Shown here piece by piece: positions 33,819 through 51,804 of a stretch of DNA of 64,000 nt (positions are counted from its first letter, which is position 1; every line of letters begins with the position of its first letter). Made by a program: the position numbers and the translations under genes. Where the stretch lies: NCBI GenBank assembly GCA_016887505.1, contig CP069393.1, positions 1,598,001-1,662,000 of the forward strand. Reading direction: 5' to 3'. Below the pieces are notes generated by a model. It saw nothing but the letters and a program-made list of their open reading frames with translations, made no database searches and had not been told where the DNA came from. Source of the DNA: Clostridia bacterium (GTDB lineage Bacteria; Bacillota; TC1; UBA5767).

Positions 33819-33844
33819 AAAAGCCTTTGAAATCAAAGGCTTCA
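33819..33844 (-). terminator. Terminator of the defence operon
   Basis: AAGCCTTTGA (33821-33830) and TCAAAGGCTT (33833-33842) form a perfect 10-bp stem with a two-base spacing; on the minus strand TTTTATG follows. It is ~180 bases past the stop of the last operon gene (34025). Confidence 0.75.
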
Positions 33845-34024: not shown

Positions 34025-37021
34025 CTATGAGCAGATCAGCGTCAACGGGATTGCGTATGTATCCTTCAGATAAGCCTCTGCACTGCAAAGTACCTGATGC
34101 ATTGAGGTAGTAATTTGGGTGCTATCGACACCCGGTTGAACTATATAAACCCTAAACTCCGATGAATAGACTTTCAGTTTGTTTTTTAGGATAAACATTA
34201 ACTTGTTGTCTCCAATCTCATATCGCGAGGGTTTCCCATTACTGGCCCTGTCGCTTTCGCGTCTCATAAGTCGTTCCAGCATAGATTTTGAATCACTTGC
34301 CCATTTAATACATTTTTCCGTTTGCCCACAAACTTCATATAAATCCCCGACCCTCGCTCCAGCCTTTGGCGCACTCGAATATTTACAATGGTATAATTCA
34401 AATAAAAGTTTGTTATTTGCAACGTCTTCTTGAACTGCGATGACATCTGCCACTTCTCCAGAACCGTCATCATCGAAAATAAGACAGTATTTACCTGATG
34501 CTTTTAATTCTGAAATAAGTTTATATTGAATGCTTTCCGTCGCTTTGTCTGTCCCCTGGGATTCTTTACTGATATCGATCCCAGACCAATCCCACGGGAT
34601 AATGCTATCTGTAGGAAATGTAACTGGACGGGCTGTTTTTAGTTTGACAAGAAGATTGCCCTCAAGGGACGACCCATCAACAAACCATATTGTCGGAGGG
34701 TTATCCATGAAAAAGTCTCTAATGAGCATCTCTCTGCCGCGGCTGAAACGTATGCTTATAATTGAACCGCTTTTATGGCTAACCGAATACCCAGTCGATG
34801 TTATTTTAAGAGTGAACTCCTCTTTGAAGTCATCGTTTCCCACTGAAAAAGTTAATTCTGATGTTTCATCAAATGAAGTCAACCTTATGTCCATAAGGAA
34901 CGACTTGGAATCAGTTAGAGCCGTTTTTACGGTGATTGATCCTTTCCAGTCTTCTTCAATTTCCGATGGAAAGTCGATTCGATAAGGAACAACCGCAGGC
35001 CGTGCGGTGATTTCCTCTGGAACAAGCGCACCTTTTAGTACGGTCGTGGTATCAATAGCCGAGTTTAAAATTTTCTCCGCTTGTTTATCGCACCAGTCTT
35101 TCCAGTAATTTATGGTCTCAACCCACTTTGCCCAAATCGTCCCTTTGTAGGAACAACCAATACTTATACTGCTCCCATTTTCATAACCCACGCCAAACAG
35201 GTTTGATTTTGTTGCGGTACCTGTAGTTGCCCCGGTTATTCCTTCAGCAACGTCGACACCGGCGAACATTCTGTAGCGGATATGATGATTGGAAACGGCG
35301 GTCTTAAGCCCAACAGTAGAAAGCATCAATCTGTTTATTCCTGAAAGGCAACGGAACACATCTTCTCCGGCTATTCGTTTATAGTTGTCAAAAACAGCTT
35401 CAGCCAACCTATCAGCTATTCCTTTATCGGTCGTGTTGATGAAAAATACGTTTTTCGTTTCGTTCCAGTAAAGAATGTGCAGATTCCAGTTGTCATCCGT
35501 TATGTCGCGACAAGTGGTCCAGTCCACGTTGCTTGTGCGAAGCTCCGTAATTATCAAAATTTTCTCTGTTTCATTTACGTAGTGGTGACTATGCTCCTCG
35601 TTGAAGACCTTGCTCCATCGCCGCCAATACCACTGGGACTCGGTCGTTGTATACATAAACATACTGATTTTCGGTCTTATCTGATTTAGTGGAATGACTT
35701 CTGTCCCCGTGAAGCCACGAGCCAATTTCTGCAATTCTACTTCTCGACCGATTTTTTCATCCGACGTGTCTTTGAGTATTTTATTCCAGTCCGCATCTTG
35801 CGAATACAATTCTTCCAAGGACTCCTGAATGTCGTCGTCGACAATATTGGCCACAACGGAGGCTTCGCCAAGGTCAGCCTGTGTCCGGGCAAATCGTCCA
35901 ATGAACTGCATCGTTATAGGCAAGGACATATATTTGTCGTGGATTGCACATATCTTCAACTGTGGGATGTTTATCCCTTCGCTAAACATATCTACACAGA
36001 CGATGATTTTTGAAGTCCCGTCATTGACCTTCTGGAGAGCAGTCCGATTATCGGTTGCTTTGTTTCCACTAACGATTAAAACTGGGGAGTATTTTGCATA
36101 TTTACTCTGGTACACGTTTTCATATAGCGCTTTCGCACGGGTTTGTGTCGAAGCCCGAACCAGTAGTAAATGCGGGTATCCTTTTGCTATGTCCGCCTCA
36201 AGAAGATCAATCGCTTTTGCTGCTACAGAAAAGTCCTTTTTGTCATTATCGAATTCATAAATCGGATAAAAGTTTATCGGCTTGAAATACCCACGCTCTT
36301 GGGCAAGAGCAAGCGGAAAATTATAAATGATATCGCCATCTATCTTTTTCCCATCATTTCGGAATGGTGTGGCTGTAAATTGCAAGCACTCAACGGATTC
36401 AAACACTTTTTTGACTTTCTTCCATGAATTTGCCGGAACGTGATGTGATTCATCAATAATAAGTGTGTCGCACATTGATGCCAAAAGTCGTAAAAACTCA
36501 TCTTTGAAGTGACCAGAATTAAGCAATGACATTGTTGTTATGATAAGGTTGCTCTTATCGAGTAGTTCCTGTAGTTCGGTTATGTCTTTTGGCGACGAAA
36601 CAAGGCACCCGATAACTGGATTTTCAAAGGAATCATTTATTGCTCCTATCTCGCGTAATTTGCCAAGAGAACAAAATCTTGAAATCGTTTGTTTTCGCAA
36701 TAAGTCACTTGGCACTATTATGCAGGTTTTTGAACGATGTTCAGACACTACTGTGGCTATCATCACCTCGGTCTTTCCTGTTCCTGTTGGCATAACAATC
36801 GTGGCAGCAGAAGACGATACTGTCCAGTGCGACTTTATAGCATAGATGGCTCCCAACTGGGCAGAGCGAAAACCAGCATCAGTATCAAACTTGCTCTCAG
36901 GAAGACTGAAACTGTTATTTTTCCATGACGAAAGAACTTCGTCAACGCTTATCCAATCTGCTCCCCTTGGAACGTGAGCGATGAAGTTCTTGTCACCAAT
37001 TTTCTGTTTTGAAAAACTCAT
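34025..37021 (-). CDS. SF2 DEAD/DEAH helicase with long unique C-terminal region, last gene of the defence operon
   Basis: 998 aa. Helicase motifs: VMPTGTGKTEVM near 75-86 (I), IIDESHHVPANSW near 186-198 (II), QFTATPFRND near 209-218 (III), CVDMFSEGINIPQLK (V) and QFIGRFARTQADLG (VI). Only the first ~450 residues are helicase; the remaining ~550 have no motif I know, apart from an alternating beta pattern near 680-780 and a last part (LIFDDDGSGEVADVIAV...LFELYHCKYSS) that looks like a restriction-nuclease-type core with D...ExxxCK spacing. ATG at 37021 follows GGAGGG. It overlaps nothing but is 28 bases after the AAA gene stop; the whole run is co-directional with type III R-M genes. Confidence 0.75.
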   Translation of the reverse strand: MSFSKQKIGDKNFIAHVPRGADWISVDEVLSSWKNNSFSLPESKFDTDAGFRSAQLGAIYAIKSHWTVSSSAATIVMPTGTGKTEVMIATVVSEHRSKTCIIVPSDLLRKQTISRFCSLGKLREIGAINDSFENPVIGCLVSSPKDITELQELLDKSNLIITTMSLLNSGHFKDEFLRLLASMCDTLIIDESHHVPANSWKKVKKVFESVECLQFTATPFRNDGKKIDGDIIYNFPLALAQERGYFKPINFYPIYEFDNDKKDFSVAAKAIDLLEADIAKGYPHLLLVRASTQTRAKALYENVYQSKYAKYSPVLIVSGNKATDNRTALQKVNDGTSKIIVCVDMFSEGINIPQLKICAIHDKYMSLPITMQFIGRFARTQADLGEASVVANIVDDDIQESLEELYSQDADWNKILKDTSDEKIGREVELQKLARGFTGTEVIPLNQIRPKISMFMYTTTESQWYWRRWSKVFNEEHSHHYVNETEKILIITELRTSNVDWTTCRDITDDNWNLHILYWNETKNVFFINTTDKGIADRLAEAVFDNYKRIAGEDVFRCLSGINRLMLSTVGLKTAVSNHHIRYRMFAGVDVAEGITGATTGTATKSNLFGVGYENGSSISIGCSYKGTIWAKWVETINYWKDWCDKQAEKILNSAIDTTTVLKGALVPEEITARPAVVPYRIDFPSEIEEDWKGSITVKTALTDSKSFLMDIRLTSFDETSELTFSVGNDDFKEEFTLKITSTGYSVSHKSGSIISIRFSRGREMLIRDFFMDNPPTIWFVDGSSLEGNLLVKLKTARPVTFPTDSIIPWDWSGIDISKESQGTDKATESIQYKLISELKASGKYCLIFDDDGSGEVADVIAVQEDVANNKLLFELYHCKYSSAPKAGARVGDLYEVCGQTEKCIKWASDSKSMLERLMRRESDRASNGKPSRYEIGDNKLMFILKNKLKVYSSEFRVYIVQPGVDSTQITTSMHQVLCSAEAYLKDTYAIPLTLICS

Positions 37022-37049
37022 TTTCAACCCTCCTGCTACTTTTGTAGAA

Positions 37050-39344
37050 TTATACAACTTCTTCGCCCGTCATCATTTTGTAATGCTGTTCCTGCTCCAA
37101 GGCTTCAAAAATTAATTTGAACACATCCTTATACAGCGTGATGTCGGTGCAATCATCAACATAATTCAAACCATCGCTAAACCCTACGGAGTTGGCATTG
37201 ATATAAGACAACATAGCCGTGGCGAGGTGGTACTTCGTGTAGTCGGGTAACCCTTCGTCTGGCGTTTCCACGAACTTATCTCTATGTTCATCAAGAACCC
37301 TCTTGCGGATATTCACACCGTCGTAACCACAAAGTTGCATGAAGTAATATTCCAAAATACGGCGTATTACGTTCATTAGCGGAATAACTGTATCCACTTC
37401 TCTGTACTCACCCCAGAGGGCAGCGTAGGAGTTTTGGACAGGGTTGAAGTTTTCTTGCTCGGTTGGCTTAGATATACATTGTCGGACACAATGCTTGATT
37501 GTGGAATTGTTACTCGCTTTGTTTATCACATAGAACGATACGCAATGATAGCGGGATGCTTGGTTATAGGTTATCTCCCTATGGAAATAGACGTTGTGGG
37601 TCAAGATAAAAATCTGCTTTATATAGTCGCCCTGAACCTCACGTTCCTGTTCACGATATTCAGCGTTGTTAAAGCAGACACCTACCATCTCCCGCACCAA
37701 GGTGCTGACGATGAATAGGACGCAGCTATCCATACTGGAAACGGGGTCGTCTATTACGACAATTTTATCCTTGCTAACATCAGCATCGGTATGACTTCCG
37801 CGAACGAGGTGATAGAAGTACAGGAACGCAATGAAATTCCTCTCGCCCTCACTTAGCTTATCCGCAACTGTCCCGTCTTGGCGCACAACCTCGTAGACAT
37901 TTTGCTGACCTCGCTTTTCCCGCAGGGTGAAGCCCTGGAAACCTGAATCTCGAAGTAAATCGTTTATGCTTTTGATGGTTGGGGCGGTACTAACCACTCG
38001 TTTGTTAAGTTCTGCAATTTCATTTTCTAAAGCTCGTGATGCCTTAGCACCGTCATCGACCAGCTTAATCAATGCAGTAATCTCGTCATCAAAGGTCTTG
38101 CGCCGTAATCTATAGGTCGAAACATCACTTTGAAGTGTAAATGCAATAAGTTCCCAGACTTTCCTGGTGCACTCGGTTTGCTTCTGACGCTTCGCACCGA
38201 CAATGTCGTTGTTTGCTTGAATCTGTTTATTAAAACCCTCGATTAGGACGTTTATTTCATCACGCAGAGTTTTGACGTTTTCAAGTGTGATAACTGAAGA
38301 CGGCTCTTTCAACTTGTCAGTTATCCGTTGGATATTGATTTCAATCATTTTCTCTAAGAGCGCAAGTTTCGTCTTATATTCAGTAAGATCAAGTTTCGGG
38401 AAAGCATCCTGGAGATTGCCGTTAAGTACATCAAGGAAGCCTTGCATATCGCTTACATAGTCCTCTTGAAATTGCCGAAGGGCACTAATATCCTCTTGAT
38501 ACTGGCCATCAAAACAGGCAGAGATTTGTTTTTCAAAATCGTCGGGTAATTCCTGTTGGCAATAAGGGCATTTTCCTTCTGATTTTTCGGCGAAATGTTC
38601 ATGCCCTTGGCGTATCCAGTCCGTAGCTTTAATCGCTTTTATGAAAGCAGCAAAAGGTGTGTCACTACTGCTCGTAATGGATTTATTAAGTAGTTCGTTG
38701 CCGGATGACCCTTTTAATCTTTCCGTGCCTCCAGTAGGCTGAAAATTCTTATATGTAGCAGCTTTTGGGTCAAATGCCGTTTCGTACAGAGTTCTTAACT
38801 CTCCTATATCATGCTGAGTAGGGTTTCCTATTTGCAATACTTTCTCGGCAAACTGAGCCTTCCGCTTAAAGCCGCTCTGCGTAGCGTCAAATACGTCTCG
38901 GATGGCTTTCGTTTTATCCCAACAGGTTCCTTGAAAGTCGTCGAGCAAGGTGTTTCGTGCTGACTCCTTGCGGTCCTTTGTTATGGTATTTTCGCCATTT
39001 AGCTTTTCCTGCTCAGCCCGCTGAGTGTTTTTTTCAGCAATGTCAGCTTGAATCTTTATGTTCTGCTCGCCAACGGTGAATACGCCCTTGAGTTTGCCGT
39101 AGTCACGGAAGTTCGCTTCTACAAACTCCTGATTATAGACAAGCACGGAGTAGTCATCTGCGGATTTTCCCGCTTGCCAAGACAAACCCTCATTGGCATG
39201 GACAGCCCTCGCTATGGTAGATTTTCCCGTGCCGTTGTTTCCATAAAAGAAGTTGATAAGCGTGGGCTCAACCGGAATGCCGTGAAAAGTCGCAGCGTTT
39301 AGCATAAGTTTTTCGATTGCGGAAGTTATTTTAGTATTCATCAT
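37050..39344 (-). CDS. RloC-like AAA (AAA_13) ATPase with zinc hook
   Basis: 764 aa ABC-type ATPase: Walker A FYGNNGTGKSTIARAV near 33-48, signature KLSEGERNFIAF near 495-506, Walker B KIVVIDDPVSSMDS near 526-539 and ILTHNVYFHRE (H-loop). Between the ATPase halves are long coiled coils with CPYCQQELP at about 258, a Rad50-like zinc hook as known from RloC. The C-terminal segment NVIRRILEYYF and the later TKYHLATAM could be the Arg/Glu/His set of the PrrC/RloC anticodon nuclease, but I cannot confirm this. Such proteins cut host tRNA when a linked restriction enzyme is impaired. The start overlaps the DUF2130 stop. Confidence 0.72.
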   Translation of the reverse strand: MMNTKITSAIEKLMLNAATFHGIPVEPTLINFFYGNNGTGKSTIARAVHANEGLSWQAGKSADDYSVLVYNQEFVEANFRDYGKLKGVFTVGEQNIKIQADIAEKNTQRAEQEKLNGENTITKDRKESARNTLLDDFQGTCWDKTKAIRDVFDATQSGFKRKAQFAEKVLQIGNPTQHDIGELRTLYETAFDPKAATYKNFQPTGGTERLKGSSGNELLNKSITSSSDTPFAAFIKAIKATDWIRQGHEHFAEKSEGKCPYCQQELPDDFEKQISACFDGQYQEDISALRQFQEDYVSDMQGFLDVLNGNLQDAFPKLDLTEYKTKLALLEKMIEINIQRITDKLKEPSSVITLENVKTLRDEINVLIEGFNKQIQANNDIVGAKRQKQTECTRKVWELIAFTLQSDVSTYRLRRKTFDDEITALIKLVDDGAKASRALENEIAELNKRVVSTAPTIKSINDLLRDSGFQGFTLREKRGQQNVYEVVRQDGTVADKLSEGERNFIAFLYFYHLVRGSHTDADVSKDKIVVIDDPVSSMDSCVLFIVSTLVREMVGVCFNNAEYREQEREVQGDYIKQIFILTHNVYFHREITYNQASRYHCVSFYVINKASNNSTIKHCVRQCISKPTEQENFNPVQNSYAALWGEYREVDTVIPLMNVIRRILEYYFMQLCGYDGVNIRKRVLDEHRDKFVETPDEGLPDYTKYHLATAMLSYINANSVGFSDGLNYVDDCTDITLYKDVFKLIFEALEQEQHYKMMTGEEVV

Positions 39345-40656
39345 CTATATCCTCCGTTCGTTTTCGCGGCTCCGATATACGTGGCTTTATAGCCGGAATT
39401 TCTTCTTCGTCATCTCCGAGAGCGGGCAACGCAATTATCTCCCGGCCGGCTATACCTTGGAGATCGCCGCTCATACCATAGAGACTATTTGTGACCTTTT
39501 GCAAGATTTTTTCCTGTGCTGCCCAGCGTTTCTGGGCTTGTTTCTTCTCGGTGTCGAGCTGCTTTGCCATTTCGTCGTAGGACTCAAGGATATAACGAAT
39601 CCGGTTACTAAACTCGCCACCGGTCAGATAGTTGTATATCAGTTCAACCTTCACATCTTTGCCTTCAGCAGCGCGATTAGCCGCAAAGACCTTGACGATT
39701 GCTTCCCGCAATAACGTGGCGAGCATTATCACATAGCGCGGCTTCACAAGCCAGATATTATCAGCAAGCTGTTTGAAGTCGTCGCCTCCTCCGTCAGTGG
39801 GATTGAACACAATAACTCCCATTTGAGCTTTTTCTGATGCAATTTCATCTTTCAGTTTGCCGAGCCAGCTTGCCTGATAGGTCTTGGCATTTTTACACTC
39901 CCATAAAATCAAGCCGCAGTTCATATAAAACTGCTCGTTGACCACTTGGCGAATGTCCGAACCGCGTTCGCCCTTTTTGACTTCCTCGACTGTATCGAAC
40001 GGGAAACCGCTGCGGAGGGCATTTTCGATATCCAGTTCGAGGATTTCACCCTGTAACTGCTGTGAACCTTGTTCCGCTACCTGTTTAGCTGTGGTTAATT
40101 GCTCACGTAACCGGTTGATGGTTTCCTCCTGCTCGCGGATTTTTGTGTTGAAGTCCTCGGAGGCTTTTTGCGCCGCCTCGGCACGTATGCCTTTTTCTTT
40201 TTCGAGCAGTTCCTTGCGGGCCGTGAGTTCTGCATCCTCACGCGCCTTATTTGCCTTGGAGAGTTCTTCGAGCAAATCCGATAACTGCTTACGGAGCTGC
40301 TTTTCGCTTTCCTTTGAAGCGGTGGCTTCACGGCGCAGACGCTCGGTTTCGAGTTCCGTGGTCTGCTTTGCCTTTTCAACTTCAAGTTCAGTAGTTTGGC
40401 GAGCCTTGTCCAGTTCAAGTTTAGCAGTCTGCCGCTCCCGTTCAATTTGAAGCTGTGCCGCCTGTTGTGCCTCGGATATAGCATTTTCCACGGCTTGCTT
40501 TAACTTTATCTCGGCAGCGGCATCATACTCCTTGCGGAGTGTCTCCGACTGCTCAGTTTTTGCCCGAAGCAACTCATCCTCAATCTGGTGCTGTATGGCA
40601 TCAGATATTTCAAAAGACTTTTTGCAATTCGGACATATAATAGTAGCCCCACCCAT
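39331..40656 (-). CDS. DUF2130 protein: zinc ribbon, coiled coil and nuclease-like domain
   Basis: 441 aa. N-terminal CPNCKKSFEISDAIQ (one CxxC) is followed by ~190 residues of coiled coil rich in E/K/A/Q (three repeats of QTTELE...KA near 75-105). The C-terminal DUF2130 domain starts about 210 (GEILELDIENALRSGFPFDTVEEVKKGERGSDI) and contains LILWECKNAKTYQASWLGKLK, with ...DI...ExK placement like restriction-type nucleases. Function is not proven; DUF2130 genes often lie near restriction genes. ATG at 40656 follows GGGAGAG. Confidence 0.82.
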   Translation of the reverse strand: MGGATIICPNCKKSFEISDAIQHQIEDELLRAKTEQSETLRKEYDAAAEIKLKQAVENAISEAQQAAQLQIERERQTAKLELDKARQTTELEVEKAKQTTELETERLRREATASKESEKQLRKQLSDLLEELSKANKAREDAELTARKELLEKEKGIRAEAAQKASEDFNTKIREQEETINRLREQLTTAKQVAEQGSQQLQGEILELDIENALRSGFPFDTVEEVKKGERGSDIRQVVNEQFYMNCGLILWECKNAKTYQASWLGKLKDEIASEKAQMGVIVFNPTDGGGDDFKQLADNIWLVKPRYVIMLATLLREAIVKVFAANRAAEGKDVKVELIYNYLTGGEFSNRIRYILESYDEMAKQLDTEKKQAQKRWAAQEKILQKVTNSLYGMSGDLQGIAGREIIALPALGDDEEEIPAIKPRISEPRKRTEDIDDEY

Positions 40657-40680
40657 ATTTTCTCTCCCCTCAGACTATTT

Positions 40681-43600
40681 TTATCCCTGTACCAGCTCCC
40701 ACAGCTTGTCATAGCTGTCAACTACATCGTATTTCACCTTATCGCCGCTGATAGCACGGAAATGCTCACGGGCGCAGTGTGCTTTGGCTTCCTCGATTTT
40801 GCGTAGTTCCATCGAGGACATATCACCTTTCGTTTCAGCAACGAAATAAATGTGTTTCACTTTACCTTCATAGAACGCAATCGCCCAGTCGGGGTTATAC
40901 TTGCCCACAGGGGTGTTGATATAAAATCCGCGTGGCAACTTGACATAGACCTCTACTTCTTGGCTGTGCGCTTCTAACGCGGAAGCGAAATCACGCTCGT
41001 TGGTTGAATCGTAAATAACATAATCATATAAGTGGCGCTTTGCCTCCATGGCGTTCACGCCAAGGCTACCTTTTTTAAGATCAGGTTCGGTGAATATATC
41101 AGTACCAAAAGCAGCGGTCAGCTTATCGTAGGTTATGTGTTCGATAATTGCTGTGGCTTTCTGTTCGTTGATGATGTTAGACGCGCGGATAATATACTCT
41201 TCGGGGTTGTCTCCAAACTGGTCAAAGATTACTTTTTCGAGCCTGACCATAATCTTTGTCACGGCTTTTCTGGTTAGTCCCGTCTCTGCTACGATTTTTC
41301 CAACAAGATCGTAGTGGACGGATGAACTTGCCCGCATCGTCATGAATGAAGCCGCTTCCTCGCGCACCATATCCTTTCGAACAAATGCTTCTCCGTACTC
41401 AAGCTGTTCCTTGGAGTCAATATTCTTTGCCTGTTCGCCCGTCTCAACCCTGAAATAAATCTTCGAAACGCGCAGTCGTGCATTCAGTTCCTTTACAGCC
41501 TTTTCCACCAATTCATCTTCATCAAATCCTACGACATAGTAGCTTTTGTGGTTAATGCGTGACCACAGTTCTTGGAATGCCTTGCTATCCAGTTTTCCCT
41601 TATCAAGCGTGACCTCGACGGTGTTTTTGCGAGCGTTTTCAGGCTTATTGGCATTCGGATCGTAGACAGAATCCAGTACGGCTATGACATCAGCAGTTTG
41701 TCCGGCTGCTTCTTCAGGTACTTCTATAGTGCCGTTTTTCTTATCCTCGTAATATTTCTCGGTTAGTTCGCCTCGCTTCACATAACCGTTTTCTATTAAG
41801 CTCTCATATATAGCAAGGGCTGTATCTTCGCCGAACTTCTCTGTGAACAGCTTTGCTTCCACCTTGCGCGGACGATCGCCGACAGCTTCGGCAATTTCGC
41901 TTTGCAATCCCTTGGCGAAGCTATCGTAGCTTTCGTTTGCAATAACCGTCAGTACGTTGATATTGTGGACTTCCTCGCGGGATAGGAGGGTTTCATCCAT
42001 ACGTTCGCCGCCTTGATTGACGGCAAGGCGCAGCCCACGCCCGACTTCCTGGCGTTTACGAACATCGCTTCCGCTCTGTTTCAAAGTACAAATCTGAAAA
42101 ACATTCGGGTTATCCCAGCCTTCGCGCAAGGCAGAGTGGGAAAAGATAAACCGCACAGGCTCTCGGCGGTCAAGCAGGCGTTCCTTGTCCTTCATGATGA
42201 GGTCATAGGCATCCGCGTCGTCGGATGTGCGTTCTTTTCTATCGCCGAGCTTACTGTCTACCATACGACCACTTTTCTTATCAATTGAAAAGTAACCAGC
42301 ATGTGTCCGCTCGACCTCAATACCGTCAAGATACGCAAGGTACTCCGTCGTGTCAGTTAAGGCAAGCTGCATACTGCCGACGATGGCTTTGTACTCCTCC
42401 TCGAAAATCTCAGCATAGGTGCCGCCCTGTGCGTTGCCTGAAGCATCATACTGCTTGTACTTCGCCACTTCATCAATAAAGAAAAGCGATAAAACCTTCA
42501 CGCCTTTGGTAAATAACTGCCGCTCCCGCTCGATATGGGACAGGATGGTTTCCCGTATCTGAATACGACGCAACTGATCCTCACTGACCGCACCGATAAC
42601 ATCCCCGGCAAACAACTTCTTACCGTTTGTAAATTCAACGGAAGAATCTCTGCCGTCAATTCGCAAAACGGTATAGCCGTCCTTATATTCGGCAAGCTCA
42701 CCGGAGTTATCGAACAGGCTATAACCTTCGGTTACTACCCGTGTTTTTGGGCTGAACCCGGTCTTATTCTTTATGTCAAATTCGATTGTCGCCGTGGGGT
42801 TGCCCTTCGAAAGGTTTATGCTCTGCACATAAACATACCCTTCTGTGGCGGTGCTACCGGAAACCGAAATACCCTTGACGGCTATCTTTTTTACGAGCCG
42901 TTTGTTATAAGCCTCGATCGCATCCAAGCGGTAAATCATATTGTACAGGCTGTCAGCTTTGTGGGTCGCAGAATATCGAAGGGTGACAAGGGGAGCGAAC
43001 TCCTTCAATCGCTCTTTGGTTGCCGCACCCTCGACCGACTGTGGCTCATCTATAATCAATATCGGGTTTGTTTTTGCAATGATATCAATCGGACGGCGTG
43101 AGCGAAACTCGTCCAGCTTCATATAGATACGCCGGGCATCCTTGCCCCTTGCGTTAAATGCTTGGCTGTTGATGATCATCACATTAATTGCACTATCAGA
43201 AGCGAACCGGTCAATCTCAGTGAGCTGCGAGGAATTATAAATGAAATAACGGATTTTCTTACCGTAATCCTCGGCAAAATGCTCCTCCGTCATTTGGAAG
43301 GACTTATAAACCCCCTCACGAATAGCTACACTTGGCACAACGATGATAAATTTACTCCAGCCATACCGTTTGTTAAGCTCGTACATGGTCTTGATATATG
43401 TATAGGTTTTGCCAACACCTGTTTCCATCTCAATGGTTAGGTTAAAACGGCCTACAAGTGAATCGGACGGTTTTATACCACCTTGCCGCTGAGTGGTGCG
43501 GATATGCTCCAGTATTTTGTCATCAGTAACAACTATAGGCGCATTGCTGAAGCCCGTAAAATCCTGTGTTTGGGATAGGGAAAGCTGTCCCAAACCGGAA

Positions 43601-43704
43601 TCTATCATATATGTTGGGGTGCGAAACGGTTGACCTGCGAACGCATCGCAGACCGCTTTTGCTGCGTCTGCCTGAAAAGGCTGATGCCGGAATTGTAGTT
43701 TCAT
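40681..43704 (-). CDS. res: Type III restriction enzyme Res subunit (helicase-nuclease)
   Basis: 1007 aa. SF2 motifs: [13 protein letters not shown] near 95-107 (I), [12 protein letters not shown] near 217-228 (II, DEPQ), LRYSATHK (III), [24 protein letters not shown] (V) and [15 protein letters not shown] (VI). The C-terminal nuclease is [12 protein letters not shown] then YFVAETKGD, a PD-ExK set. This is the cutting subunit that works with Mod (43739-45556) after both bind their target. ATG at 43704 is preferred to 43722. The gene is full length with all motifs present. Confidence 0.92.
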   Translation of the reverse strand: [1007 protein letters not shown]

Positions 43705-43738
43705 TCGCCAGCACCTCCGCATTCTTTTTTAGTTTTCA

Positions 43739-45556
43739 TCATATCACCCTCACATTCGTGTTGGGTGCAAGCAGCTTGAAGATTTCAAACACGTTTATTT
43801 TTTCAGGCGAACTGGAAAAGCTGCTGTCGCGGAACACGGCACGCAAGGGCTTGCGGCTTGCTATCTCGCGGATTGCCTTTTCGCTGATACGATCTTCAAA
43901 GCAAGCAATCAGGTCACCGTCGTTGTAGGTATGGACGGTGAAGCCGTCGATTTTTTCGTGGGTGTGGGGCATGGATAGCGGCAAGCCCCATTCGAGCAGG
44001 CAACCGTAGAGCAAATCCATATCGGTGCGGTCGGGCTTAATGTTGCTTTCCATTTGCAAAATCAAGTCCTGCGTATAGTCACCCGCCGCGTAGTACACAT
44101 CGTTCATGTTGGTATCGTCCAGCTTGAGGACACGGAAACCGATATCGAGATTCAGCGCGGTCAACCCCGCTTCAGCTTTGATTTTATCCCCGGCACGACG
44201 GATGCGTTCTTTGCCGATTTCACAGATATTTTTATAGCCCGCTTTGTAGGCTTCAGATTTTTCATCGGTGACTTCGGGCAGCTGCACCATTATAAATTTT
44301 CGCTTGCCGCCGTCCTCGGCGTTGAGTTGCATTAAAGCGTCTCCCGTTGTTCCGCTTCCAGAGAAAAAGTCGAAAACGATATCATTACCTTTGACAACAA
44401 CCTTTAGAAGATATTTCATAAGATTCAACGGTTTTGGATTATCAAACTTTACTTCTGTAATAAGTTTTTTTAAGTAAACCGTTGTGCTTTGTGCATCAAA
44501 GACACCCCAGTTGCTTTTGATTGCTTTATTCTCATTGGTCATTTCTCGCATGAATTCCTTCTGTTTTGGAAGGGTATCTTTCCATAAGATCCGGTTTTCC
44601 TGTATCATCCTTTCCAGCGATTCTTTTGAGAACGCCCAAGTATTTGTATATTCTCTACCTGTATTGGGATCGGTTATTGTAAAGGAATCTTCAATTGGCT
44701 TTGTCGTGCTTTTAATATTTGACTCGCGCCACGGTCCCCTTGGGTCATTATCTGGGTTTTTGAACCCATCCGTCTCCTCATTGCGCTCTTCACCAATAAA
44801 ACTAAACTTGTCGCTTCTCTGGTAAACGACTATGTATTCATGGACATTGACCATCATATTTCTTGGGGGGACACCTTTTGCGGAGGACTTTTTATCCCAT
44901 ACAACGGAGTCTACATAGTTAGCTTCACCAAAAATTTCATCCATCATGGCTTTTAAGGTTGAATGCTCGTGTTCATCGATACTCACAAAAATTGCCCCAT
45001 CTTCCGTTAATAAATCCCTTGCAATCCGTAAACGAGAATATATCATACTACACCAGTCAGAATGCATACGGGGGTTGCTGATAGTATTTTCGCGGAAGTT
45101 TCTTTGCCCGCTCTCATCGAACATATCTACTGCCTCTTCATATTCGTCATCGTCAGCACGATAATTATCAGGATACAGGAAACTATCGCTCCCTGTGTTG
45201 TACGGCGGATCTATGTAGATCATCTTGACTTTGCCCAAATAGCTCTCTTGCAAGAGTTTGAGCACGTCAAGGTTGTCGCCCTCTATGTAAAGATTTTCGG
45301 TTGTATCCCAATCCTTGCTTTCCTCCACGCAGGGGCGGAGTGTCTTGCGGATAGGTCTTCCGGCCTCGGCAATGGCGGCGCGTTTGCCCACCCATGTAAA
45401 TTCGTACGCTTCATCGCCGTATACATCCTCACCAAGCATGGAGCGCAGTAGGTCAAAATTAACCTTCCCCTCGGTCACTACGCCGGGGAAAAGTTCGGCA
45501 ATTTTCGTCACATTCTCGGCGGTGAGATTCGGGGTTTCGAATTTCATTTTATCCAT
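43739..45556 (-). CDS. mod: Type III DNA methyltransferase Mod subunit
   Basis: 605 aa beta-class adenine methyltransferase. IYIDPPYNTGSDSFLYPDNY near 114-133 is motif IV, and VFDFFSGSGTTGDALMQL near 394-411 is motif I. The region between is the target-recognition domain (KKSSAKGVPPRNMMVNVHEY etc.). The conserved N-terminal part (ELFPGVVTEGKVNFDLLRSML) is normal for Mod. It methylates one strand of a short asymmetric site and gives specificity to Res. It follows the small coiled-coil gene and precedes res by 34 bases. Confidence 0.93.
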   Translation of the reverse strand: MDKMKFETPNLTAENVTKIAELFPGVVTEGKVNFDLLRSMLGEDVYGDEAYEFTWVGKRAAIAEAGRPIRKTLRPCVEESKDWDTTENLYIEGDNLDVLKLLQESYLGKVKMIYIDPPYNTGSDSFLYPDNYRADDDEYEEAVDMFDESGQRNFRENTISNPRMHSDWCSMIYSRLRIARDLLTEDGAIFVSIDEHEHSTLKAMMDEIFGEANYVDSVVWDKKSSAKGVPPRNMMVNVHEYIVVYQRSDKFSFIGEERNEETDGFKNPDNDPRGPWRESNIKSTTKPIEDSFTITDPNTGREYTNTWAFSKESLERMIQENRILWKDTLPKQKEFMREMTNENKAIKSNWGVFDAQSTTVYLKKLITEVKFDNPKPLNLMKYLLKVVVKGNDIVFDFFSGSGTTGDALMQLNAEDGGKRKFIMVQLPEVTDEKSEAYKAGYKNICEIGKERIRRAGDKIKAEAGLTALNLDIGFRVLKLDDTNMNDVYYAAGDYTQDLILQMESNIKPDRTDMDLLYGCLLEWGLPLSMPHTHEKIDGFTVHTYNDGDLIACFEDRISEKAIREIASRKPLRAVFRDSSFSSSPEKINVFEIFKLLAPNTNVRVI

Positions 45557-45573
45557 ATCAATTATCCTCCTAT

Positions 45574-46044
45574 TTATGGCAGTTTCTCAATGATCGGTTG
45601 AGCCAAGTTCCAAACAGCCGTGGCGTAACCTGCTATCTTTGCAAGGGTTTCTGCATCCTTGATTGTTTGCGTTATCCTGCCCATAACCTTGGTATAGACG
45701 GATTTCGCTTCGGCTTGGCTTCTTGCCTTGGCGATGGTCAATACTTCGGCAATTATCTCAATCAATTCATCTTGCTGCTCATTGCTCTTGCTGATAAGGT
45801 CAACAAGTGTATAGAGGTTCGCCGTGTTTTGCTCGATGGCGCGGAGGCTTCGGATTGTTTCTTCACGATAGGCGGCTTCTGCTGCTTCTTTTCGTTCACG
45901 CTCTCTTTGGACAGCTTGCATCGACCGCTCCATGTCACGTTGATTTGCAGCTATCGAGTCAGCTACCGAATTAGCAAGGTGATTTGTTGTTGAAAAATCT
46001 ATTCTCGGCATATTTGCCGGATCTAACTTGAATCCATCACTCAT
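45574..46044 (-). CDS. Small coiled-coil protein of the defence operon
   Basis: 156 aa, mostly helical. The middle (QRDMERSMQAVQRERERKEA near 35-55) is a charged coiled coil and the C-terminus (KIAGYATAVWNLAQPIIEKLP) is amphipathic. No enzymatic motif. It overlaps the DUF4391 gene by four bases (ATGA type), so it is co-translated. Its regular place between DUF4391 and Mod suggests a structural or coupling subunit; unknown family. Confidence 0.6.
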   Translation of the reverse strand: MSDGFKLDPANMPRIDFSTTNHLANSVADSIAANQRDMERSMQAVQRERERKEAAEAAYREETIRSLRAIEQNTANLYTLVDLISKSNEQQDELIEIIAEVLTIAKARSQAEAKSVYTKVMGRITQTIKDAETLAKIAGYATAVWNLAQPIIEKLP

Positions 46045-46652
46045 TGTAGTTCCTCCAGTTCTTTTTTAAGTCGTTTCAACTCGCCGTTCAACTCAACTTG
46101 TTTATTAAACTGCTTTTCACGCAGTAGTTTCTTTTCTAAGGCGACAATATCGCGTTCGAGTCTTTGCCGCTGTTTATCACGGTCTACGGCTTCTTCAATA
46201 TCGCCGTCCGTTCCGAGTCGACCACCCGATATCTGCCGCGCCAAGTTTTCGTACACCGCATCCAAATTTAACCCATCGAACCTCAACATAAAACCACCAA
46301 GCGGCTGCCAGTCGGTGTTGTAGAACGTGCCGGATGCTTCAATCCACACCTGCGCCTCGTCGCCGAACACGAGGATAAACAGGATTTTATACGGTATTGC
46401 TTTGGCAATGGCGGGCAGAACCCGCTTGTCGAGTTCCCGTTGGCGAAGCTGAATTTCAAATATCTGAATTTCCGCAACTGTTTCGCCTGCACTGATCGCC
46501 ATCGTGCTATCTGCAAGCTTGTTTCGCCAGAAGACTGAATCTATCTGGTCTTTTATCATGTCGCGCGACTGCGGCGTGAGAGTGGCGTTTTGGTAGAGCT
46601 TCTCTTTCGCAATGCGGCGGTTTACCTGCGTTGTGCGTGGCAATCCTAACAT
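46041..46652 (-). CDS. DUF4391 protein
   Basis: 203 aa. The N-terminal region (PRTTQVNRRIAKEKLYQNA, then DSVFWRNKLADSTMAI) and the central EIQIFEIQLRQRELDKRVLPAIAKAIPYKILFILVFGDEAQVWIE match DUF4391, a family found next to type III-like methyltransferases and helicases. The C-terminal ~45 residues are a coiled coil (LERDIVALEKKLLREKQFN). No activity known. It lies four bases after the helicase stop. Confidence 0.8.
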   Translation of the reverse strand: MLGLPRTTQVNRRIAKEKLYQNATLTPQSRDMIKDQIDSVFWRNKLADSTMAISAGETVAEIQIFEIQLRQRELDKRVLPAIAKAIPYKILFILVFGDEAQVWIEASGTFYNTDWQPLGGFMLRFDGLNLDAVYENLARQISGGRLGTDGDIEEAVDRDKQRQRLERDIVALEKKLLREKQFNKQVELNGELKRLKKELEELQ

Positions 46653-46656
46653 CTCG

Positions 46657-49600
46657 TCACCTCACCACAAGGAAGCAAATCAATTCAAAATCATCCAGCC
46701 CGCTGATATTGGTATTTAGGGCAGATGTGCCGCCCGGGCTGAACAAGCTATCGATATCGCTTTCCTCTTTTACTTCAATAATTGAGTTGATTGCATCCGA
46801 TAACAACGTGGACACGCCGCGCATATCTCGCCCGTCTTTTGTCTCTTTGTTGAAGTCTTGGCAGGCTTCCATCGTTGGTTCGGTTTTGCCCCTGCATAGA
46901 GACCGGAACTTGTCAAGCAGTTCCTTTGGGGAAAGATGGTCGCAAATGACTTCACCGTCCGTTCCTATATACACCATGTAAAACGGGTGGAGGCGGTTCT
47001 GCATATCAATGTTTACGCTGTTATTGCGGTTCTTCAACACGAACACAATTCCCGGCGGACAATCCTCCGAAGCGGGGACAACCGCATGAAGCCCAAAAGG
47101 AACTTTATCCATATCGCCATTGTTTTTAACATATTCAAGCAGGTCAAGCCTAAATTCGTTCAGTCCCAAATCCATAATGGAGATGCCCGACTGCATATCT
47201 TCTATATCCACAACTTCCTCTTGAAGTCGTTTGAGTTGCGCTTTGCGGTATTCAAGGTCGCCTTTTTCCTCGGCGTTGATAAGGTCGTCGTCACCGGTTG
47301 CGGTCATGACAGAAATCCGCATCCTTGTTTCCACCCTACCTTTAAGGGAGAGATACTCATCCAAATCCACGTCCGGCCAGAAGTTGACAAGCTGAATAAC
47401 CTCGTTGCGGCTGCCAATACGGTCAATCCGCCCGAAACGCTGAATAATACGGACGGGGTTCCAGTGAATGTCGTAGTTGACGCAATAGTCGCAGTCTTGC
47501 AGGTTCTGACCTTCTGATATGCAGTCTGTGGCAATCAGCACCGAAATGTCAGCGGTGTTGTTTGGCATCAACAGGTTTTTGTCCTTTGAAATCGGGGAGA
47601 ACAAGGTCAGCACCTCGTTCATAGAAGCCCGCTGTCCCTTTATCGTGGTTTTGCCATCAACGCTTCCCGTAATCATCGCCGTATCAAGCCCAAATTTAGA
47701 CTTCACGAATGAACTGACATGGTGGTACAGATACTCCGCCGTATCTGAGAATGCTGAGAATATCAGGATCTTTCGGTTTCTATCGTTAATCGGATTCGTC
47801 AGTTTGCCTTCGATAAGTCCGAAAAGCGTCTGGAGTTTTGTGTCGTGTTTTGGTGTGATATCGTCAATCAGCATTTTCAGTAAGGCAAGCTCCTCGCTGT
47901 CTTCTGAAAGCCTGTCCCGCCAGGTTTTATAATCCATGTCGCCAAGGTCAATTTTGATGCTGTGTTCGGCAGCAAAATACTCCGTATTGCGATCATCATC
48001 GTCGAAGTCTGCGTCGCCTGTGAGTTCCCGTCCGTCTATAACCGAATAGCCGCCACTTGTGTAGGCATCTATTTCGGCAATTGTGCTATCAATTAATTGC
48101 TTAACCCGCCCAACAGTGAGCCGAAAGGACTCTACGGAGCTTTCGAGTCGTTTCATTAGGTTTATGCTCATCAAGCGGCGTATGCCCATTTCACGCCCTG
48201 CGCGGTTGATGTTGCGGGAAGTATCAACATATTTATGGAGCATACTTGGGAATATGTAATCGGTAGGGATATACACCGAGAGATTCAATTTCATTAGCTG
48301 ATAGTAAATTTCGCTGTAGTTTATTGCGCTTTCTAAATCGGTCAGGCGCGGTCGCAAAGAGATGGGCTTCAATCGTTCGGGGAATGAGCCTATCTCCTTC
48401 ATATTGTAATATTTTTCTATATGTTTACGGGAGCGAGCGATGGTCACGCTGTCCAGCACCTCAAAAAAGTCGAAATCGAGTGACTTTAACAGCGAGTTCG
48501 TAGTTCTTTCGTCCTCTTCCTTCTTGTTCCACTGGTTGAATTGCTTTTGGGCGCTTCTAAAAATTTCATCTATTGTGCGATTTATGCCGAGTTTCTCATT
48601 GATGAGACTCGGATTGCCCTCATAAGCAAGTTCAAGCTGGTGGCGAAGATCGGTAAAACGGTTGTTGACTGGAGTTGCCGAAAGCATCAAAACCTTCGTC
48701 TTTACTCCCGTGCGTATAACACGGTTCATTAAACGAAGGTAGCGATTCTCGCGACGGTCTTCTCCATATACTTCACCGCCGTTTCTAAAGTTGTGGGACT
48801 CATCGATTACCACAAGGTCATAATTGCCCCAGTTAAGCCTATCCAAATCAAGCCCGTTGGATTTGCCGCGATCCCTTGAAAGGTCCGTATGATACAGCAC
48901 ATCATATCGCAAGCGGTCGGCAGCTATTGGGTTGTTCACATAGTTGTCTTTATATGTATTCCAGTTATCCGACAACTTCTTAGGGCACAAAACAAGCACG
49001 GAGCGGTTGCGATTTTCATAATACTTAACGACAGCAAGGGCGGTAAATGTTTTACCAAGTCCTACGCTGTCTGCAAGGATACATCCGTTATATGATTCAA
49101 GTTTGTTAATAATCGCAAGTACGGCGTCCTTTTGGAATGCATATAACATATTCCAGATTTTACTCTCTTTAAATCCCGTCGCTTCATTGGGTAAAACGTC
49201 CTCGGAGATATCCTCCAAGAACTCATTGAAGATATTGTATATTGCCACAAAGTAAATAAACTCTGGTGCGTTTTCGTTATAGGCCGCAGTGATACCATCG
49301 ATGACCTGCTCAGTCACATCTTGCATCAGGCTCTTGTCGTTCCAAATTTGATTAAACATACGGATATACTCGCCGGAGAGCGGCGCAAACATCTTATTAA
49401 CCGGATTAATGATATTGTTGCCACGCTCGCAACCGATGTCGGAAGTGGTGAACCCATGTAGTGGCATATAGGTCGTGCACTCATTTCCTTCAACATTCAT
49501 AAAACCGCTGATGTTCCCGCCTGTGAGGTTGGAACGGAATTTTACCTTCTTACGAATCCAGTCGGAACACTCGCGGGCAATTGCCTTTTGTGTCAATTCA

Positions 49601-49887
49601 TTACGAAGCTTCACTTCAAACTCCGTGCCGTAGAGTGAACGCTCACGGTTAAGACGTGGGATATAGAACTCTCGTTTTTCCTTGGGCGCCTTCTCATGCA
49701 GGAAAGTCGGTGAGGTGAAAATAAAACGCAACTCATTGATGCCATCAAGCTGTTTCTTGAGGGCTTGGTACGCATATATGGAGAAACAGGCAGCCGCTAT
49801 GGACAGCTTGTCGCCCTTGTTTATCGAAACGGTCAAGTCGTCCTTAACCGTTTTATTCACATTATCAAGCATTTCTGGCATCTGCAT
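46657..49887 (-). CDS. SNF2-type helicase with N-terminal PLD-like domain
   Basis: 1076 aa. The N-terminal ~240 residues resemble PLD-superfamily proteins (SINKGDKLSIAAACFSIYAY, TTYMPLHGFTTSDIG) though a full HKD motif is not seen. The helicase core has ILADSVGLGKTFTALAVV near 265-282 (I), VVIDESHNFRNGG (II), VLMLSATPVNNRF (III) and VRIIQRFGRIDRIGSRNEV (VI). Proteins of this build occur with DUF4391 and a beta-class methyltransferase in restriction-like loci. It follows the HTH gene and starts the core of the system. ATG at 49887; no ribosome site better than AAGGAGTC was seen. Confidence 0.82.
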   Translation of the reverse strand: MQMPEMLDNVNKTVKDDLTVSINKGDKLSIAAACFSIYAYQALKKQLDGINELRFIFTSPTFLHEKAPKEKREFYIPRLNRERSLYGTEFEVKLRNELTQKAIARECSDWIRKKVKFRSNLTGGNISGFMNVEGNECTTYMPLHGFTTSDIGCERGNNIINPVNKMFAPLSGEYIRMFNQIWNDKSLMQDVTEQVIDGITAAYNENAPEFIYFVAIYNIFNEFLEDISEDVLPNEATGFKESKIWNMLYAFQKDAVLAIINKLESYNGCILADSVGLGKTFTALAVVKYYENRNRSVLVLCPKKLSDNWNTYKDNYVNNPIAADRLRYDVLYHTDLSRDRGKSNGLDLDRLNWGNYDLVVIDESHNFRNGGEVYGEDRRENRYLRLMNRVIRTGVKTKVLMLSATPVNNRFTDLRHQLELAYEGNPSLINEKLGINRTIDEIFRSAQKQFNQWNKKEEDERTTNSLLKSLDFDFFEVLDSVTIARSRKHIEKYYNMKEIGSFPERLKPISLRPRLTDLESAINYSEIYYQLMKLNLSVYIPTDYIFPSMLHKYVDTSRNINRAGREMGIRRLMSINLMKRLESSVESFRLTVGRVKQLIDSTIAEIDAYTSGGYSVIDGRELTGDADFDDDDRNTEYFAAEHSIKIDLGDMDYKTWRDRLSEDSEELALLKMLIDDITPKHDTKLQTLFGLIEGKLTNPINDRNRKILIFSAFSDTAEYLYHHVSSFVKSKFGLDTAMITGSVDGKTTIKGQRASMNEVLTLFSPISKDKNLLMPNNTADISVLIATDCISEGQNLQDCDYCVNYDIHWNPVRIIQRFGRIDRIGSRNEVIQLVNFWPDVDLDEYLSLKGRVETRMRISVMTATGDDDLINAEEKGDLEYRKAQLKRLQEEVVDIEDMQSGISIMDLGLNEFRLDLLEYVKNNGDMDKVPFGLHAVVPASEDCPPGIVFVLKNRNNSVNIDMQNRLHPFYMVYIGTDGEVICDHLSPKELLDKFRSLCRGKTEPTMEACQDFNKETKDGRDMRGVSTLLSDAINSIIEVKEESDIDSLFSPGGTSALNTNISGLDDFELICFLVVR

Positions 49888-49916
49888 ATTATTGACTCCT
49901 TAGAATTTCATTCGAT

Positions 49917-50117
49917 TTACTCCTTGATTTTGCCCTTGCGTACCCACTCGTCAACTTCGGAGACTTTAAACTTATAGCGTTTCCCGGCTTTATTAACGGG
50001 GAGTTTACCTTCCCGCATCCACGTGCGGACAGTGTCCTTGCTTACACTGAGATACTCGGCGATATCCTCAAGATTCACCCATTTTTCGGTTATATTCTTA
50101 TCAATCTCGTTGCTCAT
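49917..50117 (-). CDS. Excisionase-type (MerR-like) HTH protein
   Basis: 66 aa. WVNLEDIAEYLSVSKDTVRTWMREGKLPVNKAGKRYKF then EVDEWVRKG is the winged helix of excisionase-family (HTH_17) proteins. It lies inside the operon, 30 bases before the helicase gene. It may regulate the operon (a candidate reader of the inverted repeat at 51895-51948) or be a structural DNA-binding subunit; no integrase is near, so an excision role is unlikely. Confidence 0.8.
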   Translation of the reverse strand: MSNEIDKNITEKWVNLEDIAEYLSVSKDTVRTWMREGKLPVNKAGKRYKFKVSEVDEWVRKGKIKE

Positions 50118-50166
50118 GTCAAAACCTCCATAATGTATATATCTCGTTTTGTTGTGGTTACAACTC

Positions 50167-50796
50167 TTAAAACAGAGTGTTTATTACATCTGCTTTGCGC
50201 AGCTTCTCAATTAGATTTATCTGTTTTATCGTCCAATGTGTACGATCAAATTCATTAAATGCCGAAGCGCTATCGATAGAGAGTTCACAAGTAAGCTCAT
50301 TGAGTCGGCGCTGCGATATGGCGTACAGCAAATGAAAACACACCTTGATGCCGTTATCTTGAACTATTACTTCATCAACAAATCCGAGATAGGCATCTTG
50401 ATTTTCACCTGCACGACCATATTGATGATTTCTGCTTGCGAATATAGCCGGGAAGGTTTTTATTGCTGTAATGGCCCCCATATCTAATTTGGCGTATTTG
50501 GCTTTTAATTCGGGTGCTATACTCTCGGTCAAAGCACATTCCTTCGGTACCATAAAATGGCCTCCGGTGAACAATTCATCACCAATAACGAAAAGACTAT
50601 AATAATTCTCATTTACAGTGCGTCTTGTCGGAAGCGTGACCCCACTTGTCTGAACTACAGGAATATACACGCTTTTCATATTCACTGCATTCGCGTGAGC
50701 AATCAGCGTGTTCCCATCACCGGGTAGGTTTATATTTGCCGATGCACCACTCGACGGAAGAACGGTGGATGAGATCGGTTTCAGTTTATCACTCAT
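50167..50796 (-). CDS. Unknown protein, second gene of the defence operon
   Basis: 209 aa, start overlapping the previous gene by eight bases. After a flexible Ser/Ala/Asn-rich start (~30 residues) there is a compact domain with alternating strands (SVYIPVVQTSGVTLPTRRTV, YYSLFVIGDELFTGGHFMVP). A YGRAGENQDAYLGFVDEVIV motif near 128-147 and a helical end (HWTIKQINLIEKLRKADVI) follow. I do not recognise the family and see no catalytic motif. The tight coupling to the 310-aa gene suggests that the two products act together. Confidence 0.6.
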   Translation of the reverse strand: MSDKLKPISSTVLPSSGASANINLPGDGNTLIAHANAVNMKSVYIPVVQTSGVTLPTRRTVNENYYSLFVIGDELFTGGHFMVPKECALTESIAPELKAKYAKLDMGAITAIKTFPAIFASRNHQYGRAGENQDAYLGFVDEVIVQDNGIKVCFHLLYAISQRRLNELTCELSIDSASAFNEFDRTHWTIKQINLIEKLRKADVINTLF

Positions 50797-51721
50797 CTTT
50801 TTGCCCTCCGTTATTAATATTTACTGTATCTACATGATTATAGAAACTGTTGTTATTGCCGGATATGTTGAAATTGAAGAATGTAGGATTGTTGTTTATA
50901 ACCTGCTGCGTCAAGATGGATGCGTCAGGCTCTTTCTCTGCCGACTGTTCCTCATTAGGACTTTCATCATTTGTCATTGGTTCGTCCACTAATGGCTCAT
51001 CAACAATTTCAGCATCGACACTTTCTCCAAAGCCTTCACAATAGTTTAGCGTAATATTCCTTGAAATGAGGTTTGCAAGGTTCCCTTTATATTCACGCTT
51101 TCCCCCTCCGGTTGAAGGACACCATAAATTGATTGTTTCCTTGCCAAAAGTATTCTTTTCTGAACGGGTTACTGCAAAATGCCAAACACCTAATAAAAAT
51201 GATTGCAGGCAAACACTTGTTGCTTTGAGAATGTCGGATTTTGTTATTGCATCACCGCTTTCCGAAGCAAAGAAAAGTTGATTATCACCGATGGAGTCAT
51301 CAGCTTCAATCAAGGCTAAAAGTTCTATAACCAATCTTTCGTCTTTTCTCATGCTGCCTGTATCAATGAGCAATGCTATTACCTTAGACATTTCGGCTAA
51401 TACGGAGGGGTAATTATCTTTGATTCGCGTATTGAATGCAGTCAGTGCCGCATCGTCACCAAAAGGATATATTGAGCCTCCTTCATTTTTACAGGTCTTA
51501 TATTCTGAAGTATTGCCGCTAACTGTGCTGTCAGCGAATACAAATATGTTCTGCCAGTCAGGAACGATCACCTTAGATAAGGCGAACAGAGCTATGGGTT
51601 CGGAATAAGGCTCCGGATTCCCCGTATAATATTCATTTGCTCCACGTAGGGGCTTTCTTGCACGTAAAAACAATGTAAGGAAAGTGCCGCCGCAAAGACG
51701 CTGCTTTACTATTTTTGCCAT
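50789..51721 (-). CDS. Unknown protein, first gene of the defence operon
   Basis: 310 aa. The first ~220 residues form one domain (KIVKQRLCGGTFLTLFLRAR, SEYKTCKNEGGSIYPFGDDA, FNTRIKDNYPSVLAEMSKVI, LFFASESGDAITKSDILKAT). An acidic linker (~225-265) leads to a short beta-type tail NNNPTFFNFNISGNNNSFYN followed by HVDTVNIN. No catalytic motif is evident. The tail pattern suggests oligomer contact or target docking. ATG at 51721 overlaps the leader frame stop. It is the likely sensor or first-acting component by position only. Confidence 0.6.
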   Translation of the reverse strand: MAKIVKQRLCGGTFLTLFLRARKPLRGANEYYTGNPEPYSEPIALFALSKVIVPDWQNIFVFADSTVSGNTSEYKTCKNEGGSIYPFGDDAALTAFNTRIKDNYPSVLAEMSKVIALLIDTGSMRKDERLVIELLALIEADDSIGDNQLFFASESGDAITKSDILKATSVCLQSFLLGVWHFAVTRSEKNTFGKETINLWCPSTGGGKREYKGNLANLISRNITLNYCEGFGESVDAEIVDEPLVDEPMTNDESPNEEQSAEKEPDASILTQQVINNNPTFFNFNISGNNNSFYNHVDTVNINNGGQKDE

Positions 51722-51804
51722 ATATTTTCACCGCTTTTCAAAAAACTAACTCGGCGAACTCTAACCAACTCTACGAAGTATGGTTGGCGAACTCGGCGAA
51801 CCAT
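51709..51804 (-). CDS. Leader ORF upstream of the defence operon
   Basis: 31 residues from ATG 51804: MVRRVRQPYFVELVRVRRVS..., very basic with a repeated VRRVR/RVRRV. AAGGA lies six bases upstream and its TAG overlaps the ATG of the 310-aa gene. Direct repeats GTTCGCCGAGTT in the DNA (51745-51757 and 51789-51801) are part of the same stretch. It could tune translation of the operon; reality is uncertain. Confidence 0.4.
   Translation of the reverse strand: MVRRVRQPYFVELVRVRRVSFLKSGENIWQK

Follow-up and report, generated by a model that had tools for sequence, protein, structure and literature searches.

Background

Is a long run of genes around a type III restriction-modification (R-M) system one defense system or a composite of parts that also exist separately, and what do the two proteins without known relatives at its head contribute? 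This question is raised by an operon in a 64,000-nucleotide stretch of a Clostridia bacterium genome (contig CP069393.1, positions 1,598,001 to 1,662,000; the whole stretch is called "the window" below). The first-pass annotation regarded the eleven co-directional, closely packed genes as a multi-part system built on type III R-M, in which three helicases and a possible tRNA-cutting back-up suggested action in stages. We found no description of this gene set in the open-access literature.

A tRNase that backs up a restriction system is known from PrrC/EcoprrI, in which PrrC is held by the type I enzyme itself. Reported bacterial signalling amyloids occur mainly in filamentous, multicellular bacteria. 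The amyloid signalling sequences BASS1-10 are found in NLR/Bell pairs (PMC7889193; PMC8086366; PMC12261475), and matching C-terminal and N-terminal motifs on the products of neighbouring genes are the layout of NLR-based amyloid signalling (PMC7889193, PMC12261475). The anticodon nuclease RloC has been described as rarely linked to R-M systems and acting alone (PMC2610378).

Results

Two mobile units

All eleven open reading frames (ORFs) were found on the minus strand at 34025-51721, and neighbours either overlap by 4-14 bases or are spaced by 4-49 bases. Family assignments of the proteins are backed by Pfam, PADLOC and NCBIfam; the first two, designated U1 and U2, have no family. The operon is a composite prophage defense operon of two independently mobile units that have been combined recurrently. 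Unit A is a type III core, SNF2-DUF4391-slot-Mod-Res. Unit B is a cassette, U1-U2-HTH-AAA, with a small helix-turn-helix (HTH) protein and a RloC-like AAA ATPase. The window has unit B in two parts: U1-U2-HTH is followed by unit A and a DUF2130 gene, and then by AAA.

U2 relatives from phage and plasmid records pointed to loci in which U1-U2-HTH stands directly before an AAA gene, whose product shares 43-51% identity with the AAA protein of the window. When viral and genome contigs were scanned, they yielded 72 distinct U1 loci (U1 less than 90% identical), mostly prophages; within the available stretch 64 of them have U2 and 54 have AAA. The first recognized gene after U1-U2(-HTH) is AAA in 49 of 61 U1-U2 loci and SNF2 in eight, and HTH is present in 49 (our simple ORF calling misses genes that overlap on the opposite strand, and HTH counts were redone with tblastn). 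The cassettes lie at cargo sites of prophages and integrative and conjugative elements (ICEs). Restriction or modification genes stand behind the cassette in at least 41 of the 72 loci, and many others end at a contig edge. According to Pfam labels of one representative per cluster, these genes include type I HsdM/S/R, the SNF2-type III core, Eco57I-type and EcoRI-type methylases, GmrSD, and McrB/McrC. Unit B mostly occurs without unit A and adjoins restriction genes of type I, II, III or IV. We also observed U1-U2 without HTH, followed by R-M genes or a fragment of one, in Streptococcus/Veillonella elements and a Lactococcus plasmid (L172, L174, L040).

Unit A, in turn, mostly occurs without unit B: U1 was found in 4 of 33 DUF4391 loci. 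The units meet in three arrangements. The ten-gene order of the window recurs in four other hosts (five counting the window): Syntrophomonas wolfei subsp. methylbutyratica (L199), a Clostridia metagenome-assembled genome (MAG; L200), Desulfosporosinus sp. Tol-M (L202) and a Dethiobacter MAG (L203). Two of these four have another gene in the slot. The second arrangement is U1-U2-HTH-AAA-SNF2-DUF4391-Mod-Res (L204, L205 and several viral contigs). In the third, a NACHT NLR and DUF6650 replace U2 between U1 and SNF2-DUF4391-Mod-Res (L049, L065, L227); in L226 U1 is fused to a NACHT protein. In an even sample of the phylum, full or fused U1 is adjacent to DUF4391 in three of five other U1 genomes, versus DUF4391 in 33 of 399 genomes overall. 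This independent re-joining of U1 with the type III core disfavours a chance association.

The co-occurrence anticipated by the first-pass annotation was therefore seen for ten of the eleven genes in the four other hosts, the slot gene being variable, and the multi-part operon around type III R-M stands, as does the possible tRNA-cutting back-up; the idea of one eleven-gene system gives way to two separately mobile units. The exception is the last helicase. It is absent from L199, L200, L202 and L203, and present only in the window prophage and a 99% identical twin. Its best relative in the sampled genomes (46% identity; L249:3267-11769) is in a CBASS-type setting, with genes for a DncV-like cyclase and for a SAVED protein nearby. 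It was rejected as a member of the system by its absence in other hosts, by the stop of homology to L199 or L200 at the end of AAA (37060) and by the CBASS-side homologue. Helicases acting in stages are unsupported as such, the last one being an add-on.

Matched motifs of U1 and U2

Within each locus the U1 tail and the U2 head carry a similar motif of 15-25 residues, and this motif changes from locus to locus, a feature that was not part of the earlier reading of this DNA. The window pair is given in Table 1. Other pairs (U1 tail and U2 head, respectively) are QKAEKIYYIDHVDN and QKAEKLYNIKHVEN in L068, EQSGKGTQIGFV and EQSGKGKQIGFV in L095, and NGDGNVVMPNYGTI and DGNENVMVPNYGTV in L041. Among 25 representatives (less than 60% identity) own pairs scored 52.0 versus 29.3 for other pairs, and none of 20,000 permutations reached the own-pair value; control segments gave 23.7 versus 22.5, i.e., no signal. 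This test leaves in the shared ancestry of neighbouring loci; ancestry does not explain why two unrelated proteins match each other. The match does not stem from recent gene conversion, because identical motif residues share codons at 0.43, near the background of 0.37.

The mean score of U2 heads against U1 tails is 54.9, with 88% at 40 or above, and the means of every other gene class are 18-28. The only clear carriers besides U2 are NLR and DUF6650 heads, in loci where they occupy the place of U2. A few AAA N-termini score 40-46 in gapped alignments, partly over the P-loop region, which we take as noise. The motif is absent from fused U1-U2 (L105, L106, L149) and U1-NACHT (L226) proteins, so it is apparently no longer needed once the proteins are joined. 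It is rich in Gly, Asn and Gln. Against the BASS3 peptide (PMC8086366) U2 heads score 22.1 versus 17.8 for shuffles (standard deviation 0.37), with QVGDGNVQI against QTGDKNTQI; the motif also resembles sigma peptides above shuffles. In L078 a protein of 208 amino acids (aa) behind AAA (11163-11789) carries the locus motif for a third time, at its beginning (INIPGDGHTFIGNA).

The AlphaFold2 model of U1 has a mean predicted local distance difference test (pLDDT) score of 81, with domain blocks mostly above 85 and the tail below 50. The U2 head is left disordered next to a well-predicted domain. U1 has no relative in Pfam, NCBIfam, PADLOC, PHROG or PDB, and its fold search against solved structures gave no match; a PDB sequence search with U1 and U2 returned nothing credible. 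Neither Pfam nor the predicted structure gives U2 an NTPase domain. Both proteins diverge much faster than the other operon genes (36-47% identity where SNF2 has 90%).

Fusions of the U2 domain with a C-terminal TIR domain were observed in Proteobacteria, Bacteroidota and Bacillota (L161, L162, L157, L159, L167, L151 and others; E. coli plasmids, L039). They are apparently an undescribed class of TIR effectors, and U2 would therefore report to more than one effector. Tandem U2 pairs stand behind U1 or a U1 fragment in L100, L101, L107, L109, L112, L152, L154 and L156. A U1 domain joined to an unknown C-terminal domain of 280 aa lies beside repeats and type I CRISPR-Cas-looking genes (L251:6390-7946).

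Table 1. Features of the operon in order of transcription (window positions)
Feature	Positions	Strand	Length, aa	Basis and remarks
U1, helical domain (1-230) and disordered C-tail	50789..51721	-	310	AlphaFold2
U1 C-tail motif FFNFNISGNNNSFYNHVDTVNINNGG, residues 281-306, matches U2 head	50804..50881	-		Motif comparison
U2, disordered N-head and beta-rich domain with E..R-THW-A/T-x-K motif	50167..50796	-	209	AlphaFold2 and homologues
U2 N-head motif SANINLPGDGNTLIAHANAVNMKS, residues 19-42	50671..50742	-		Motif comparison
HTH, excisionase/MerR-like DNA-binding (HTH_17), third cassette gene	49917..50117	-	66	Adjoins U2 in 49/61 loci
SNF2-type helicase without HKD motif, first gene of type III core	46657..49887	-	1076	Pfam/PADLOC/NCBIfam
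DUF4391, second gene of type III core	46041..46652	-	203	Pfam
Coiled-coil protein, exchangeable slot between DUF4391 and Mod	45574..46044	-	156	Unrelated genes instead in L199, L203, L254 and others
Mod, type III N6 methyltransferase	43739..45556	-	605	Pfam N6_N4_Mtase; PADLOC MTase_III 714 bits, E 4e-215
Mod residues ~200-400, exchangeable target-recognition region	44357..44959	-		Between near-identical operons 12-44% identity here, but 74-100% in residues 1-100 and 451-605
Res, type III restriction subunit with C-terminal endonuclease domain	40681..43722	-	1013	PADLOC REase_III 957 bits, E 4e-288; Pfam RE_endonuc E 9e-34
DUF2130 protein	39331..40656	-	441	Pfam; between Res and AAA in L199, L200, L202, L203 too
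RloC-like AAA_13 ATPase, fourth cassette gene, mostly right after HTH in other loci	37050..39344	-	764	Pfam, PADLOC
SF2 helicase (ResIII/Helicase_C), appended, outside the conserved set	34025..37057	-	1010	Homology to L199/L200 ends at 37060
Terminator-like hairpin behind the operon, 10 pairs	33820..33843	-		Consensus match only

Type III core

At the 33 DUF4391 sites SNF2 lies upstream and Mod and Res lie downstream wherever the contig reaches, although there are broken or reduced copies (L217, L225, L228, L238). The exchangeable slot with unrelated genes is between DUF4391 and Mod and at times between Mod and Res. Compared with L199, the SNF2 and Res proteins of the window are 98-99% identical and Mod just 66%, because its target-recognition region (residues 200-400) differs; the ends of Mod are 90-100% identical. 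The window prophage has a metagenomic twin, L254, with 99% identity on either side of a replaced segment (46069-43704); this segment brings another slot gene, another target region of Mod and, between Mod and Res, an additional Abi_C gene. As these swaps in L199 and L254 show, the restriction system of unit A exchanges its specificity block as a cassette.

Like type III R-M systems, unit A has full-length PADLOC matches for Mod and Res, a DEAD-type ATPase and an endonuclease domain in Res, and an exchangeable target-recognition domain in Mod. Unlike ordinary ones, in this clade it is always preceded by SNF2 and DUF4391 and has the accessory slot. The SNF2 protein is similar to DISARM DrmD and to HKD-SNF2 helicases (PADLOC C3a139, PLD_Helicase), but it scores far below the curated cut-offs. 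No HxKx4D (HKD) motif was found in it or its homologues (49 proteins including that of the window), so the "PLD-like" domain is at most degenerate. DISARM membership was rejected: the DrmD match has 150 bits versus a cut-off of 610, and there is no DrmA, DrmB or DrmC among the operon proteins. The DUF2130 protein may be a nuclease of the PD-(D/E)XK type, as it has the GSD...ECK residues typical of this class.

RloC-like ATPase

The AAA protein is RloC-like, as in the first-pass annotation. It matches AAA_13 (E 2e-130) and PADLOC PDC-S06. Its zinc hook, C259-P-Y-C262 (CXXC), is kept in at least 95% of 57 homologues. The catalytic triad of RloC is Arg-X3-Glu-X36-52-His (PMC2610378); of R661-X3-E665, R661 is present in 54 and E665 in 51 of the 57 homologues. 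Thus the protein resembles RloC as an ABC ATPase split by a coiled coil and zinc hook, with R-X3-E near the C-terminus and a tie to R-M loci (PMC2610378). Unlike RloC, it travels with U1-U2-HTH, and the spacing of the catalytic His varies across the group.

Prophage setting

The host genome is a single contig of 2.56 Mb (phylum Bacillota). The operon sits in a prophage. To its right, on the plus strand (51947-63850), are phage replication and control genes: exonuclease, Gp2.5-like single-stranded DNA-binding protein, DNA polymerase, Ant antirepressor and primase/helicase. The single promoter assumed earlier is compatible with the gene spacing; a promoter scan gave 34 matches versus 33.8 expected, i.e., the chance level, and is of no use for operon limits. 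To the left lies a further defense gene for a PvuRts1I-like, modification-dependent SRA endonuclease (26696-27541).

Discussion

Because the matched C-terminal and N-terminal motifs of neighbouring products have the layout of NLR amyloid signalling, we propose signalling of the amyloid type for U1 and U2. U2, or the NACHT NLR in sister loci, would be the sensing arm. Its trigger would probably be failed or antagonised restriction, or modified or damaged phage DNA. The U2 head would template the matching U1 tail into a homotypic cross-beta (RHIM/BASS-like) assembly, which may activate U1, the AAA protein or both. The latter would be the executor that cuts tRNA and stops translation, and HTH would control expression. 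Unit B would thus act as a mobile back-up module for restriction systems. We consider this explanation as a whole, i.e., unit A as a type III R-M system in which the SNF2/DUF4391 pair is obligate and the specificity block exchangeable, backed up by unit B with an amyloid-like relay from U2 to U1 and an AAA tRNase, to be evenly poised between right and wrong. A bolder statement is more tentative, and we lean against it at present: that this is an NLR-free, prion-like relay outside multicellular bacteria, in which U2 and U1 are a new receptor/adaptor pair and a locus-specific amyloid code guards many restriction types, firing a RloC-like nuclease (or TIR when fused to U2) on restriction failure.

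Like BASS pairs, U1 and its next-door partner carry a short Gly/Asn/Gln-rich motif at the C-terminus and the N-terminus, respectively, with triplets too, and the partner in L049/L065 is a NACHT NLR, as in NLR/Bell pairs. Unlike BASS pairs, the partner is mostly U2, without an NTPase, including in the window, where the NLR receptor is therefore lacking. U1 is not a recognized Bell domain but a helical protein without a Pfam family or solved-fold match. The hosts are single-celled Bacillota and their prophages, and there is a link to restriction and a RloC-like ATPase. The proposed tRNase back-up resembles that of PrrC/EcoprrI, which has no counterpart of the U1/U2 pair.

Several observations speak against the relay. 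The AAA protein lacks the matched motif, and its link to U1 and U2 rests on gene order. Most U2 proteins have no NTPase, unlike known amyloid receptors. The U2 fold search gave weak PUA-like matches (YTH, Lon N-domain, cereblon; E 0.011 or 0.01 and worse, TM-score 0.38-0.48), which would suit a reader of modified nucleotides and are suggestive but not significant; the U2 profile did not match the EVE domain profile. Placement of the catalytic His of RloC is ambiguous: H706 (X40) is present in the window protein but in only 23 of 57 homologues, and H754 (X88), outside the described spacing, is present in all 57. Finally, the motifs could be ordinary docking strands instead of amyloid.

The last point leads to the alternative of a constitutive U1-U2 complex, in which the motifs are short docking beta strands that confer specificity but do not template, and AAA or the R-M genes are under the control of the complex. 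It would explain motif matching and motif-free fusions equally well, but the motif is Gly/Asn/Gln-rich, lies in predicted disordered tails and resembles the BASS3 and sigma peptides above shuffles. The sharing of the motif by an NLR head in the place of U2 is also the known amyloid-signalling layout (PMC7889193). We regard this alternative as rather unlikely. Given the excisionase/MerR-like HTH and the prophage and ICE cargo sites, U1-U2-HTH might instead be a regulatory cassette that times expression of cargo R-M genes in mobile elements much as a C-protein switch does; AAA would then be an unrelated passenger. This is improbable, as AAA is the first recognized gene behind the cassette in most U1-U2 loci and accompanies it next to many different partner systems, and the U2-TIR and U1-NACHT fusions point to immune signalling.

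The other two explanations concern the operon as a whole. The view that all eleven genes form one integrated type III system, whose three helicases act in stages, gains from the ten-gene order kept in five hosts; we find it very improbable, however, since both units are far commoner apart and the last helicase is absent elsewhere and has its homologue in a CBASS-type locus. That defense genes cluster in islands would make a chance stack at a prophage cargo site conceivable, and the last helicase fits such a stack. It is hardly credible for the rest, as U1 and the same type III core are joined in three different arrangements, with an adjacency to DUF4391 well above its frequency in the phylum sample.

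Conclusions

Two entities that current annotation tools miss are defined here: the mobile module U1-U2-HTH-AAA and the type III core of four genes. The module is a concrete candidate for coupling a RloC-type tRNase to restriction systems of every type. The natural swaps (U2, NLR and fusions) make specificity and cross-seeding directly testable with two short peptides per locus. A review asks whether bacteria have signalling amyloids independent of NLRs (PMC7889193), and matched motifs are present at dozens of loci in Clostridia and Bacilli and in prophages of these groups. If the proposed relay is true, the reach of amyloid immune signalling would include ordinary single-celled bacteria as well as the back-up of restriction systems.

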